Source: Isoetes taiwanensis (taxonomy: Eukaryota; Streptophyta; Lycopodiopsida; Isoetales; Isoetaceae). From it: DNA of 64,000 bases. The DNA lies in the NCBI GenBank assembly GCA_021234155.1, contig JAJEKV010000057.1, positions 3,689,821 to 3,753,820 on the forward strand, written 5' to 3'. The position numbers and the translations under genes were made by a program. Shown piece after piece: positions 10,155 through 28,975 of the stretch (position 1 is its first letter; every line of letters starts with the position of its first letter). Under the pieces are notes generated by a model. It was not told where the DNA came from. It did no database searches and was given only the letters and a program-made list of their open reading frames with translations.

Positions 10155-11598
10155 CCAATTCTGTATAAAGATTTTTAGTTACATCTATTTTGCACACGTG
10201 ACATTGCAAGTTCTCTATACACTTATGGAAGAAGAATAGATGAATTTGTGACCACAAGATAATTGGACGTACAAGGAATACAGAAGGTCATGCCACAAAC
10301 CAAACAACCCGAGACTCCATCTGCAAATGGCCAGTTCCCAGCTGTAGGTATTATCAAGGTACTTGTTACAAAGTTTGCTCTCAAATGCTGCAAGTTTGAA
10401 ATTTTAGTTTGCAAGTCTGCCTGTGCTTCAACTTTAATTGTGACCAACGTATTCAGGTGACTAATGGCATCTTCTATTTCCTGCGTATTGTTCGCAGATT
10501 CCTTGTTCTTCAGGAGGGAAAGCAGAGTAAGTCCCAGCAACTTTTCTTCATCTCTAAACTTAGACAGAGCTGCATCCTCTTCGGGACAGATTTCTTCCAA
10601 CGCTTGCAATTTTTCCTTCACTTCCTTGATGTCTTTGCAAATAGATGCAGCTGATGCATCATATCCACGAAGAAGACCTTTTGTTTCGACCAGCTGCATC
10701 TGCTTTTCCTTCAACTGATTTTCTAAAGTCAAAACTTCCTCACTAAACAATTTCAAATCTGCTTCCAAATGGGATATGGAATTGGCAATGTTGGAATAAG
10801 CCATTTGTTCTCTCACAGTCCTTGTCTGGTTATTCCTCATTGAAATTTGCATCGACTTCCATGCAAATCTTGCCCAATTAACTCTGAAATTAACAGGATT
10901 TGCAATTGCCTTCTTTGTATGCTGCCATGCAAATGCCCTAGCAAACTGAGTTCTTGCTTCCTTATTTTTCAAACCATGCTGATAAACCCTTTGAACCAGA
11001 TCATAGTTCCTTTTGAAACTTAGGCCGAATTTGGTGCAGCTTGATCTTATTATCCTTTAGGTTGCAATTCCATACAGATAGAAAATCATTCTGATTACGA
11101 TCATTCCAAGTCAATGTTCATGGATCTCTGCCTTCATTACAAAGACCTCTATACACAGCAAACTCCTCTATTGAAGATGCTATCCGCATTTCCTACAGAT
11201 CGATTAAACGCATGCATGCAATGAGGAAAAAAAAAGGCATAAAAAACACTGGCGCTTACCTTTAAATCGAAAGTTTCTGCTGAAGGAAGTATTCCGCAAC
11301 TTTCTCTGGAATTGTTATGAATCTGCATGTCCATCCCTGCTTTTGAAAAAGAGGCATAGGGATGATTGGAAATCATGAAGGGAGGACGGGATGAGCTCAG
11401 CGGGTCCGACATGCCCGACACGAAAAATGATGACGGCTCGTCATCGTCCTTCTTTTTTTTAACAAAAAAAAATTGGTATATTAGTGCTTCATGGGTGCTT
11501 ATCTAGCGTGAAATTGCCCCCCAACTCCACGCTTAGAACCACTACATGGCAGTTTGTTGGGTCAAATTTGGACAAATCATGGTCAAACATGGTCGACT

Positions 11599-11668
11599 TG
11601 GGTCCATTCGCGCGAAAGGGGCCTGTGTTCGCGACGCAGAGGCCTTCGGCACGACTCGACCGGAGTGG
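11599..11668. repeat. Hairpin module 1 of 3
   Basis: This GC-rich ~70-bp block can fold on itself. The 5' arm GGTCCATTCGCGCGAAAGG pairs with a 3' arm near CCTTCGGCACGACTCGACC, and an inner stem CTGTGT/ACGCAG closes over TCGCG. It is the most diverged of the three copies. Confidence 0.7.
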
Positions 11669-11805
11669 CTTGATTTTGCTAAAAATTGAACATTTCTAAA
11701 GGTTATAAAGCACTAAAATGACATGCAAAAGTGCAGCAAAATGACATGCTAAGCAGTAACTTATTTTATGCTAAAATGACATGCAAAAGTGCAAATTTTT
11801 GTGAT

Positions 11806-11876
11806 TCGGGTCCATTCGCGCGAAAGGGGCCTGCGTTCGCGACGCAGAGGCCTTTGGCGCGAATCGACCGGAGTGG
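11806..11876. repeat. Hairpin module 2 of 3
   Basis: Second copy, with the outer 19-bp arms matching at 17 of 19 positions and a perfect inner stem CTGCGT-TCGCG-ACGCAG. It is separated from its neighbours by about 130 bp of unrelated AT-rich DNA in which the motif AAAATGACATGCAAAAGTGCA recurs. Confidence 0.75.
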
Positions 11877-12005
11877 GCCAATTTTGACTTGCTTTCTTAT
11901 GTTTTTAACTAAAATTAAGTGCTACATTGCATTTCTAGACAAATTTTAAGCATTCTAACATCTTTTAGTACAAAAATTGGGTCAATTATGCCCGAAATCT
12001 GGTGA

Positions 12006-12078
12006 CTCGGGTCTATTCGCGCGAAAGGGGCCTGCGTTCGCGATGCAGAGGCCTTTGGCACGAATCGACCCGAGTGGG
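12006..12078. repeat. Hairpin module 3 of 3
   Basis: Third copy, about 200 bp after module 2. Both stem arms are kept, with a few changes (GATGCAG for GACGCAG, GACCCGAG for GACCGGAG). Confidence 0.75.
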
Positions 12079-12260
12079 TTGCCATTTTTCAACCTTCTAA
12101 GGGGAAATCTTACATAAATTTTACAATTAGGAGCATTCTAACTATAATGGGAAGGAATTCTACAACAATTTTAATTTATATAAGAACATTATTTTATACA
12201 TGCAAGAAATTAATTTATACAAAAAGTACTTTTATATATGTTCGAATTGAGTTACACCTT

Positions 12261-13379
12261 CTAGGGCTTCTCTTTGCGGATCCTTCTCGCCAGGTGGAGG
12301 TCCTTGGGCATCACTGTCATCCAGTTGGCGTGGATTGCGCATAGATTGCCCTTTTCGAAGAGTTGGACAAGCTCCGCTTCCGCTGCCTCCTGCAGAGCTC
12401 GGACCGTTAGGGGTGTAACCCTGTAGTTGATCCGAAAGTCCTGCATTATTTCCCGGAGGAGCCGTTCGAATGGCACCTTCCGGATCTCCCTAAACACACG
12501 GGCGTGCTTTGAGTTTGGCCCGTGGTGGACTTTCTTGGGCGGCTCCGACCGTGGCGGTGGCGGCGGCTTCGGCTGGTTCTTGGGCCTCCCTCCTTTAACG
12601 TACTTTTGTACATTCTGCTTGCAATACCAGTCATTGTACCTCTTCCATCTGCGGAGGTACTCCTGGTATGCCTTCTTGCGCCACTAGAATTCACGATCCT
12701 GCCTGAGCATGAATTCCCGCTCGCCCATCTTCTGCTTCTTTATTACCTTAGGTAGCTTGGCCCACTTAGGGTAAGGTGGGCGGGCGTCGAGGTTTGAAGA
12801 TTCCTCGGCGTCTTGCTCGGGCTCTTCCTCCTCCTGCCGGGCTTCTTCGATGTCCTCTTCCTCCTCCTCCTCGTCGGTAGCTTTCCGACGAGGTTCTTGG
12901 ATATGGACCGTGCCCCTGGCCGGTCGTGGTCCCTTTTGGACCGCTTCTCTCTCCTTTATGCCTCCTCCCTCTCCCTCTTCTTCCTCTGGGCTCTGTCTTT
13001 TGGCCATTCGGCCACTTTCTCCTTGCCCTTCCTCTTCCTGGAGGTGCCTACTTCCTCCTCCTCCTGCTGCTGCTGTTGCTCTTCTTGCTCGTCCTGTTGC
13101 TGCTCTTGCTCCTGCTCATCCCCCTGCTGCTGCTCCTCCTGCTCCGACGGCCAGCTGAGGGTGACAGTCTCGTCCGTCCATTAGGGCTCCGTCGAGGAAC
13201 TCTGCTCCCTCTCTTGGGAGGCGTGGAAGGTGTCGTCTATTGAACTCGACGACTCCTCCTTTCCCCTGGGCTTGAGATGCTCGAGGATCTTCTTCCTTCC
13301 CACCACCTGCTGCTGCTTCCGCCATAGAAGGTGTACGCCTGGGGCTATACTTCCTGGCTGTGCATTTGGTGCGTGCCAT
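12261..13379 (-). pseudogene. Histone H3-like ORF with a large charged insertion
   Basis: One frame of 373 codons starts MARTKCTARKYSPRR, clearly the H3 tail (Lys4 and Lys9 kept, Gln5 to Cys, Ser10 to Tyr). It ends with an H3 histone fold: [46 protein letters not shown] and [10 protein letters not shown]. Between them lie about 250 residues rich in Glu, Gln, Arg and Pro that are absent from H3. About 13 residues of the alphaN/alpha1 region (the YQKSTELLIRKL segment of H3) are missing, so REIRK joins directly to PFERLL. TGA (13118-13116) and TAG (12686-12684) interrupt the frame. A second frame at about 13250-13010 is strikingly Glu/Gln-rich and may be the original one, which would imply two compensating frameshifts. 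It sits 545 bp downstream of the primer-binding site, where gag normally begins. A CENH3-derived origin is possible but not shown. Confidence 0.75.
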
Positions 13380-13923
13380 ATCTTACGATTAAGAAAACTG
13401 ATTAGGTTAAGCTGAAGATCAAAGGAGAGAGGTTTAGGGAAAGATAGGGAGAAATGGGTGGCAAAATGGTATTTAAAACGGAAAGATGCTCTAGGAAATA
13501 TTCTCCTACTATTAATAGCCCTATTAATTAGCCTCCCTTATTAATTACTCCACTATACATATTAATGTATGGTTACTGCTACTTTGAAATTCGAATTTTC
13601 CTAATGGTTTGAAGTGCCAATTATGGATTTGCGCCATTTTTCACCTGGGTCTCGGATTGGGATGATTCTTCGACCATTTTGGGTGAACTTTGATGCTGAT
13701 GAATAGTTTTCACTCCAATTTTACTAGAATATTAATTTGATTCATTCTTTTTCCCACGTCTAACAATTTAGCCTAACTTTACGAACCCGCTACCTAGGAG
13801 AAAAAAATTTTCCCCTTATTTTTGAGGTTCAATGGTGGAATTTTCATCCCACAGCCTATTAGGCCTGTTAGACTACTTAACTAGGGATATGGTCAGTGCT
13901 AGTTCTTGGTCAACCAAGAACAT

Positions 13924-13936
13924 GGCTCTGATACCA
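13924..13936 (-). other. Primer-binding site (initiator tRNA-Met type)
   Basis: The minus strand reads TGGTATCAGAGCC, the usual plant LTR-retrotransposon primer site complementary to the 3' end of initiator tRNA-Met. It lies one base inside the LTR end. Confidence 0.85.
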
Positions 13937-13937
13937 T

Positions 13938-15529
13938 TGTGATGCTCCCTACAAAATATACGGCGCCCGGCCGTACACTCTGTAGGAAATCCCCCATCCG
14001 ATCCTCCGACCGCACGGGCCCTCCATCTATCCCGCACCCCAGGGTATCCCTAGTGCGGAAGGGGACACGAAGGTGTCTTGCGCGCCCTTCCCCTATGGGC
14101 TCCTATAACAGCGGAAGCATAAACATCGTCAGAACTAACAATAACAATACATCATACTACCTCAAAGGGTAGCCCATCCCCATATCCATAGATACAATAG
14201 AGATAAGCACGTGCCGTAAAACATGAGAGCTCCTACCCAAGGCTCAGACTCATGGGGAGGTAGACTGACGGCTAGTGCACAAGATAGAGCAGACCGAGTC
14301 ATAACAATGGCGGGGCTGGCTCGAGATAATGGCTGTCCGCCCCTCCTGTGTATACTTTGCAGATGGGCTAGATTGAGCTCTGGTATGACTCTAGCCTTCC
14401 GGATACATAATTTCATGGTATCACCCATCGAGACTACTCCAGGTTGCATCTCCCCAGTCCGTCGAGGCAGGAAGGGTTCCATCTCCCCTTCTCGGGGTCT
14501 AGAGGTTCTACGGGCAGCTAGAGAATCGTGGCGACACATCCCCAAAACAAGAGGCAGGTCGTCACCTGCAGCTCTTGAGAGGCAGGGCGACACCATTGCC
14601 CCAGGAGGTGTCGGACCCATGCCCGGCCCACTCGAAGTGACCGGCCATAAGCCTATCCCGCTATGGGGTCCCCAGTAGCCGCGCTCAGCAGGGACCCTCC
14701 CTCCGTCTCGCTTCTAGCCCTGTTATGTAGTGCTGAGTCATATCATAGCCCCCGTAGCTCGGTGGATTCCTATGCACAGGCCGCATATAATAGGAACTAA
14801 AGGGTCTAACTAGGAGCATCACTAAGTAATGGCTACTAGGTCTCTACCCCCCTTCCCAACACAAGAGGAGCAAATATGATCAACCAACATCACATATCCA
14901 TCTAACATGATACTAATGAGAATAACATCTAAACCTAATCATACATATCTAACTTACAGTTAGGGTTCATTGATTAGGGTTCAAGATCTAAACTAAGGGT
15001 TCTAGGAAGGCTTTAATATCTCATCTGGAGTCCTAACTTCTAGATGATCTACAAAGAACTCTAATCTAAATACCTGCTCTTGAGGAACTCCCTCCTACTC
15101 CCGGCGTCTCCATGATCTTCAAGGTGGTCGAAGTAGTCCTCGCTCCAAGGTCATGCACACACTCTGGGGGCTGCTGTGCTAGGCTATGCCACAGCAAACG
15201 ACTCTCGAAACGGAGTTTCGAGCGCGAAGAAGGTTCCCAGAGTGTTGGAGCCAAGAAAGAGGCCTAGGGTTAGGGTTTAGGACTATATAGGTTAGGGTTT
15301 ACATGTTATGCCATGTGGCTCCAATGGGGTATGGTCGTGTGGCGGTTGCCCAAAGGATAAGGCCGCATGGAAATTGGCCATATCCTAGGGGTATCTAAGT
15401 TATATGAATAACTTAGACATGCACCCAATGCCACTAATTAAGGATATACAAGGCTATGAAGGTAGACTTGTATAGTGATGGACCCAAAAATATACGTATT
15501 TATGGCATATATTTCCCTGGAACGTCACA
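13938..15529 (-). repeat. LTR of the H3-like element (about 1592 bp)
   Basis: The repeat is bounded by TGTGA and TCACA, giving the short inverted ends typical of LTRs, and the primer-binding site follows. On the minus strand a TATA-like CTATATAG lies about 240 bp from the LTR start, so U3 is short and R-U5 unusually long. Frames inside it show no protein homology. Confidence 0.75.
15264..15300 (-). promoter_or_regulatory. Putative LTR promoter: TATA box between telo-box motifs
   Basis: On the minus strand AAACCCTAAC, CTATATAG and CCTAAACCCTAACCC follow one another. Telo-boxes (AAACCCTA) occur in promoters of plant translation and S-phase genes. That they drive this LTR is inference. Confidence 0.4.
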
Positions 15530-27712: not shown

Positions 27713-28975
27713 GTATTTGAAGTTCTCTGGTATCGAGATGTTGTTGGTTTCATGCGAGTCGCAGTGCAAGAATATCGGGATGGCACGATAATCAATGCAC
27801 ATTCGCATTGATCCGTCCTTTTTCTTGACTAGAATGATAGGAGCACCATAAGGGGATTTGCTAGGTCTCACAAACCCTTTGGCTAGCAGCTCATGAACCT
27901 GTTTTTTAACCTCCTCTTGTTCCAATATGGACAATCTATAAGGGCTAGAAACACGGGTTTGGATCCAGGCTCTAAATCAATCTTATATTCTATCTCTCTA
28001 CTAGGGGGAAGACCTTCAGGCAGTTCCTCAGCACTCATATGACAGCACTCAAAAGCAGGATAACATTCATCAATAAATAGAAGAAAACATTGATTGGAAG
28101 ATTTACGTACCAGTTTCTTGACCAGAAGCGACGACACGATCTTGGAAGCTTCTGTGAAAGGACTCCCTTGCAGATAAATCTCACGTCCATCGTGCTTCAG
28201 CGTCACCTGGTGAGTGTTCCAATCTATTGCGGTAGGCTTAACCCGCTGCAACCATGTTATCCCCAACACCACATCATATCGGCCAACATCCAAGAGGTCA
28301 AAATCGAGCTTTTCCTGGTAGTCTTGAATACACAAGGGCCCCCCAACAGTTTTACGATCCTCCATCTGAGAATCGTTCACAAAAGGACCATCTGCCTTGT
28401 ACTTATTAGTCTTTACACAAGGTAGGTGCAGTTCTTCCACCAACTTAGAAGAGCCACAATCCAATAATACCACAACGTTTCGGCCCGTGATTCTGCCCAA
28501 GAATCTAATCACCCGTCCAGCAAACATGTCCATGACGTCCTTGCTTGCAGGCTTATCCAGCGCGCACAGCTCTTCCATGGCAATGGCTGAAACCGTCTTA
28601 GATTCCAATATTTCTTCAGCCTTTTCAGTCACGTTTGCTTTCTTGTTATCAGCTTTCTTGTTCTGTGGCTGAGAGCATTCACAACTAATGTGCCCAGGCT
28701 CCCCACACCTATAGCAGAAAATTCCCTTTTTGGGACCACTGGACTTAGAGTCCGCCTTACGCTTGTTGCACTCTCCACCTGCAGACTTAGACTTAGGCTG
28801 CTCAGACTTTTTCTTCTTGAAAAACCTGTTTTTCTTCTTTGAGAACTTCCGAGACGTCCTCTTAAAGGACTCATTCTCTTCCTCGAGCCAACATTGTTGC
28901 CCTCTCAAAATCCTTGGGCTTCAACCCAATTATCTGCTTCTTGAGAGCAACACTAGATAGACCACCTAGGAAGAA
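27713..28975 (-). mobile_element. Ty3/gypsy gag-pol fragment
   Basis: On the minus strand, in order: a Lys-rich gag tail, a zinc knuckle CYRCGEPGHISCEC (CX2CX4HX4C), a retropepsin-like VVLLDCGSS (Cys in place of the usual Thr or Ser after Asp), and the start of reverse transcriptase ([35 protein letters not shown]). The RT ends before its catalytic motif, and a frameshift lies between protease and RT. No LTR is attached, so it is an internal fragment. Confidence 0.88.

Follow-up and report, generated by a model that had tools for sequence, protein, structure and literature searches.

An LTR retrotransposon group with a histone H3-like first gene in the genome of the quillwort Isoetes taiwanensis

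The stretch of the Isoetes taiwanensis genome analyzed here, hereinafter the window (64,000 nucleotides; positions 3,689,821 to 3,753,820 of contig JAJEKV010000057.1, assembly GCA_021234155.1), contains on its minus strand a long terminal repeat (LTR), a primer-binding site and an open reading frame (ORF) for a protein similar to histone H3, all in the places where a preliminary description, made from the sequence alone, had put them (Table 1). The copy in the window is dead and lacks its 3' part. The LTR retrotransposon group to which it belongs has an H3-like first gene and is present in the quillwort genome in thousands of copies, of which many are broken. The element is a chromovirus, that is, a Ty3/gypsy LTR retrotransposon with a chromodomain, with extra genes located before gag.

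The window copy and its complete relatives

The start codon of the H3-like gene of the window copy (ORF1), an ATG at 13379, lies 558 bp from the LTR, and the gene encodes both the H3 tail (as MARTKCTARK) and the H3 fold that the preliminary description had recognized. The fold matches the Pfam family Histone (PF00125) with an E-value of 8.9e-24 and 84.5 bits, against a cut-off of 26.4, and the histone H3 chains in the PDB with an E-value of about 2e-23. A histone fold above the Pfam cut-off was found also in the retrieved genomic loci (denoted by L numbers) L030, L032, L014, L024, L056 and L062, and this match, together with the reversed-pattern controls given below, rules out a chance ORF. 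The frame of ORF1 in the window runs into stops after 87 and 231 codons, before its end at 12261; part of the N-terminal half resembles the intact relatives (L067-L069) in another frame only, as judged by eye, and the fold, close to its start, lacks 11 residues that the relatives have. It is because of this frame loss and these missing fold residues that we consider the copy dead. Of the about 250 charged residues described earlier between tail and fold, some came from out-of-frame translation.

The LTR begins at 15529 with TGTGACG and ends in ...GGAGCATCACA at 13938. When 40 of 9,126 first-look candidates from the genome were scored with it, 25 of the 45 other genome rows among the matches listed extended from position 1 of the 1,591-base query to position 1584 or beyond, with identities of 80-87%; as these rows cover nearly all of the query, the ends of the window LTR are real. 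The primer-binding site we take to be of the tRNA-iMet type.

In the relatives, the order of genes is LTR - H3-like ORF - ORF2 - gag - protease - reverse transcriptase (RT) - RNase H - integrase - chromodomain - LTR. On contig C1007, two same-strand matches to the window LTR start 13.4 kb apart (L030/L029, read as two separate pieces), and these pieces contain an LTR, the primer site, the H3-like ORF, a hairpin spacer and ORF2, and then gag-pol, which in L029 comprises gag, protease, part of RT, RNase H, integrase and the chromodomain and is followed by a 3' LTR that is cut short (query 1-1472). The two LTRs show 62 mismatches in 1,496 columns and 22 gaps. In L019, the H3 fold, RT, RNase H, integrase and the chromodomain all lie within one 10-kb stretch. 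Thus, the H3-like ORF recurs between the same LTRs, together with gag-pol, and given also the selection described below, a nested histone pseudogene, the alternative by which the preliminary description would have been refuted, is ruled out.

The assignment of the individual domains rests on Pfam matches. Retrotrans_gag (PF03732) is detected in L023, with an E-value of 3.9e-16, in a separate ORF downstream of ORF2; RVP_2 and RVT_1 are found in L014, RNase H in L010, and SH3_Tf2-1 and Chromo (PF00385, E 1.6e-11, 44.4 bits vs a cut-off of 25.1) in L029, and the integrase core is weak (rve, E 0.016, under the cut-off). The chromodomain is C-terminal to the integrase and is matched also by PDB chromodomains, with a similar stretch in L019 and L020, and the gag of L029 includes a CCHC-like knuckle, CFRCFQLGHRMHNC, identified by eye. 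ORF2 is situated between the H3-like ORF and gag (L023:4890-6446, L032:4124-4753, L034:4230-4805); its versions in the two major clades, A and B, are similar, a judgment made partly by eye, and it yielded no Pfam match in the L023 and L032 copies and no PDB match in the L023 copy. In place of a hAT domain, none of which was found in 20 Pfam-scanned ORFs (from the window, L010, L014, L015, L023, L024, L029, L030, L032 and L034), there are LTRs and RT. Because gag is a separate downstream ORF, the H3-like gene precedes gag and does not replace it, so that the initial placement of the H3-like ORF in the gag position has to be abandoned. The same applies to the notion of an element type without gag and pol: the relatives carry both, and their absence from the window copy is due to truncation, given that similarity to the full-length relatives stops near 11535.

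The spacer of the window copy, between ORF1 and the expected place of ORF2, is matched by a spacer in L030/L029. The RNA fold z-scores of its repeats are -5.65, -4.15 and -1.07, the last one unremarkable, and an Rfam search of the window returned nothing at the gathering threshold. The window copy has one LTR only; a second one was looked for between 9000 and 18000 of the window, and none was found. Elsewhere in the window, positions 27779-28521 (minus strand) contain remnants of a protease and an RT that resemble the corresponding domains of the H3-bearing chromoviruses, and the same similarity search produced no histone match elsewhere in the window.

Table 1. Features of the element copy in the window
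Feature	Positions	Strand	Properties and evidence
LTR (5' LTR of the element)	13938..15529	-	1,592 bp, TGTGACG...CATCACA; genome matches
Primer-binding site TGGTATCAGAGC	13925-13936	-	one base after the LTR end
H3-like ORF1, degraded	12261..13379	-	interrupted by two stops and by frameshift(s); 11 residues of the fold absent
H3 N-terminal tail MARTKCTARK	13350..13379	-	H3 residues 1-9 with Q5C
H3 histone fold	12264..12503	-	PF00125; tblastn to host-type H3 and to L030; PDB H3
Spacer with three diverged repeats, ~109 nt each, each able to form a long hairpin	11564..12081	-	direct repeats D2, inverted repeat I1
Truncation zone	11450..11535		ORF2, gag, pol and 3' LTR missing

Copy number, architecture and selection of the H3-like protein

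That this element might represent a repeated family had been anticipated, and genome-wide searches (1,658,258,908 bases in 1,110 contigs) bear this out. A degenerate DNA pattern for MARTKQTA matches the genome exactly at 2,079 sites and its reversed control at 0; with up to 2 mismatches allowed, the figures are 3,815 and 32. A pattern for ALQEAAE in helix 2 of H3 has 1,868 matches (reversed control, 0); the counts for both patterns include the host's own H3 genes. From 100 listed tails and 86 listed helix-2 motifs in the same contig range, 19 pairs form within 2.5 kb on one strand, leaving 81 tails and 67 motifs without an exact partner among those listed. The spacing is 980-1,219 bp in 17 of these pairs; in the other 2 it is 273 bp, which corresponds to an ordinary H3 gene.

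Among 20 loci of 10 kb drawn from the listed tails, a fold profile placed an H3 fold after the tail in 17 (weak in L011, L013, L025 and L026) and none after the tail in L015, L021 and L024. Same-strand gag and/or RT follows the tail in 11 of the 20 loci, with RT in 10, and the primer-site word TGGTATCAGAGC precedes the tail by 574-705 bp in 5. Two other groups were encountered in this sample. A second repeated context of the tail, MARTKQTARVPG..., occurs in L016 (tail at G000:C8:80959-80981, minus strand) and L021 (G000:C20:185463-185485, minus strand), and the fold profile found no histone fold downstream of it in either locus, which makes this a tail-only group; a decayed group, MARTKQTARIHP..., comprises L013, L024 (tail at 2995) and L025, and a weak H3 fold follows the tail in L013 and L025.

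The protein encoded by ORF1 consists of roughly 370-420 amino acids, with H3 residues 1-9 at the N-terminus, a charged middle region and the H3 fold. In clade A1, the length is 392-421 amino acids, compared with about 136 in canonical H3; after residue 9 or 10 the sequence turns into unrelated charged sequence, in which Pfam identified no family beyond Histone at or above the cut-off, and the protein is not an H3 of canonical length with S10, K14, K27 and K36 in its tail. Searches with two folds show how many of the copies are open. With the fold of L014, 150 of 9,547 candidates were scored and all 150 matched, 108 of them without a stop, including 44 whose open frame spans 390 amino acids or more; with the window fold, 150 of 9,265 candidates were scored, and 89 were free of stops, 22 of these with a frame of at least 360 amino acids. 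Stops are present in the remaining 42 and 61 scored matches, respectively. Ten A1 copies were retrieved from the L014-fold list, selected for long open frames and a spread of identity, and in all ten a single frame extends from the tail to the end of the fold, albeit shifted internally in L058, so that the question whether the ORF is intact anywhere can be answered in the affirmative. The tail is exactly MARTKQTARK in 7 of the 10 and one residue off in the other 3, including Q5H in L064. In the clade of the window copy, A2, the whole tail is in frame and exact in 2 of 5 copies and out of frame in 3.

Both the tail and the fold of ORF1 are under strong purifying selection, and the gene has been maintained for a long time. 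In A1, the pooled ratio of nonsynonymous to synonymous substitution rates (dN/dS), obtained by simple counting (Nei-Gojobori, 45 pairs) on copies selected by fold match and long open frame, with synonymous sites near-saturated between clades, is 0.027 for the tail, 0.22 for the middle region and, with saturated dS, 0.054 for the fold; for the fold, pairs with measurable, unsaturated dS yield 0.03-0.09. Five A2 copies give a fold ratio of 0.025, again at saturated dS, and clade B gives 0.045, with 0.011 and 0.030 in two pairs whose dS is near 0.55-0.59. Clade B has a different N-terminus that lacks ARTKQTARK in L032, and because it has lost the tail, as seen in that locus, and nevertheless keeps the fold, the fold is the constant part of the protein across clades. 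Its identity to host H3 is 49-58% in A1, 64-65% in A2 and 81-88% in clade B. In 25 folds, R83, E97, D123 and L126 are conserved throughout, K115, R116, T118 and C110 in 24 and H113 in 23, so that nucleosomal DNA-contact and H3-H3' residues are kept.

Possible functions of the H3-like protein

What could an LTR retrotransposon do with a histone? The explanation that we favor, and for which we see about an even chance, is that the dead element in the window, cut off at its 3' end, is a copy of a chromovirus whose first gene encodes an H3 variant owned by the element and likely anchoring element proteins or the integration complex on chromatin. From the conserved sequence features, we infer that the ORF1 protein works in chromatin as such a variant. 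Its fold, in which the nucleosomal DNA-contact and H3-H3' residues are kept, would pair with host H4 and thus enter or bind chromatin, the ARTKQTARK tail would be offered to host readers or writers of H3K4/K9, and the most likely use of the protein would be tethering of the element's proteins or integration complex to chromatin. The constancy of a fold with DNA-binding and H3-H3' residues argues for H4 pairing or the binding of histone chaperones and hence for chromatin anchoring, and the fact that the tail ends at the K4/K9 epitope argues for the engagement of host readers or writers. Tethering seems preferable to a disturbance of silencing in view of clade B, where the fold persists although the tail is gone.

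Several observations weigh against this interpretation. The tail is changed at T3, R8 or Q5 in 2 of the 10 A1 copies, or in 3 with the Q5H of L064 included, as well as in the window, in L030 and in L066, and the position after K9 is occupied in the copies seen by V, P, Y, F or A, as opposed to S in H3. In the fold, R63 is absent from 18 of 18 A1 sequences, and R128/R129 are mostly lost as well. The dS of the pooled A1 fold is saturated (3.2), and with L058 left out the tail and middle ratios are 0.027 and 0.21 and the pooled fold ratio is not computable. Finally, the chromodomain of the element keeps the tryptophan of the aromatic cage but not the first and third aromatics, as judged by eye against the HP1 positions, and the loss of two of the three cage residues goes against a simple reading by the element of its own K9-methylated tail.

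The strongest competing scenario, possible although in our view clearly less probable than anchoring, casts the protein as a histone-mimic decoy: the tail, with its methylatable K4 and K9, would titrate or divert the readers and writers of host silencing, letting the element escape repression, and the fold would only stabilize or localize the protein. Such a decoy fits a tail that extends no further than the K4/K9 epitope, that shows the strongest constraint in the protein and that is exact in most of the A1 copies even though the query used to find them excluded it, and it also fits the existence of a tail-only family (L021, one tail of L016); a fold without a tail in clade B speaks against it, as does the lack of K9 in some groups (MARTKQTARV in L018 and L020).

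A more ambitious extension of chromatin anchoring appears unlikely. Under this scenario, the element would build its own chromatin: the ORF1 protein would replace H3 in nucleosomes on element DNA or at target sites, its methylatable ARTKQTARK would be read by host readers or by the chromodomain of the integrase, and the element would accordingly write, carry and read its own chromatin address. The boldest version, in which the chromodomain reads the element's own tail, is weakened, its simplest form being opposed by the incomplete cage.

Still more doubtful is a structural role in the particle, whereby a basic, histone-like protein would condense the RNA or DNA of the element as a nucleocapsid or core protein and play no part in host chromatin. 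The protein is charged and is encoded first in the element, beside gag, as might be expected of a particle component; however, gag already has a capsid domain and the CCHC-like knuckle, and mere condensation does not need an exact H3 tail or conservation of the H3-H3' residues.

A connection with the centromeric variant CENH3, raised by the preliminary description along with a proposal to place the fold in a tree, found no support. An element-borne CENH3, i.e. a protein derived from or imitating the centromeric H3 variant that would aim the element at centromeres, is very improbable: loop 1 of the element folds has the length of H3 and not the longer one of CENH3/CENP-A (in an alignment with CENH3 and CENP-A sequences), which speaks against CENH3 capture, and the tail is that of H3. 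The A1 motifs REIRHFQ and RVTLM do resemble Arabidopsis CENH3, and in the fold tree, where the element folds form no group with CENH3/CENP-A, the deep nodes are weak (23.5/62 at one node), so that the tree position is weakly resolved.

Passive capture, with a host H3 retrocopy trapped in the element and amplified as a passenger, like H3 in fungal hAT transposons, can be virtually dismissed: gene capture by transposons is known and many copies carry stops, but the low dN/dS of tail and fold already contradicts it, and clades A1, A2 and B, 49-88% identical to host H3, all keep the ORF before ORF2 and gag.

Relation to known elements and biological meaning

Histones and histone mimics encoded by parasites include the histones of Marseilleviridae, the H4 of bracoviruses and the tail of influenza NS1. 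These do not come from LTR retrotransposons, in contrast to the Isoetes ORF1, which unites the H3 tail and fold in one protein. In one scan of viral contigs with the L056 protein, 6 stretches fit a pattern, and none was confirmed as a relative.

The comparisons that follow draw on parts of the cited papers. The nearest prior art is H3 carried by hAT DNA transposons of fungi, namely the H3L of Pyrenophora tritici-repentis, Pseudocercospora fijiensis and their relatives, where a transposon likewise multiplies an H3-like gene (PMC3538342, PMC6710886). There are 26 very similar H3L copies with expressed sequence tags in P. tritici-repentis and 784 H3-like copies in P. fijiensis, where the extra copies have been inactivated by repeat-induced point mutation (PMC3538342, PMC6710886). 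The fungal vehicle, however, is a DNA transposon with terminal inverted repeats, whereas the Isoetes element is an LTR retrotransposon in which a tail, an inserted middle and a fold have been selected over diverged clades. The assertion that no retroelement type with H3 had been described is therefore to be narrowed: among the matches listed in searches of open-licence PMC papers, none was an LTR retrotransposon carrying a histone H3 gene, but H3 in hAT transposons is on record. In addition, a Helentron with H4 and H15 histone fragments has been reported (PMC4067079). Plant LTR retrotransposons also keep additional ORFs, such as the 2-ODD domain in orchid Gypsy elements (PMC9289625, PMC7264820), although extra domains in LTR elements have been termed a rare event (PMC9289625); most of the reviewed additional ORFs are situated after pol and ahead of the 3' LTR, and they include no histone, unlike the H3-like ORF of Isoetes, which lies before gag.

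With the plant chromoviruses, including the Tcn1- and Galadriel-type elements of lycophytes, the Isoetes element shares the order gag, protease, RT, RNase H, integrase and a terminal chromodomain (PMC2864245, PMC3350952), and its chromodomain resembles the plant group II chromodomains that lack the cage aromatics (PMC3350952). The H3-like ORF and ORF2 before gag set the Isoetes element apart, no such ORF appearing in the parts of those papers considered here. In both Isoetes genome papers (PMC8566536, PMC10541799), the word histone is absent from the main text. Repeats with similarity to plant proteins had been removed from the I. taiwanensis repeat library (PMC8566536), and, if the H3-bearing elements were among them, as we suppose, this could be why they were overlooked; some of them may have been left annotated as host genes.

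The preservation of the H3-like gene by selection suggests that a mobile element may make its own chromatin protein. Some chromoviruses read histone marks via the chromodomain (PMC3350952), and here is a chromovirus group that also encodes, under strong selection, an H3 variant with the K4/K9 epitope used by hosts in silencing. It provides a natural experiment that bears on the ways in which transposons engage chromatin, on which residues of the H3 tail matter and on how a histone can become a tool of a parasite.

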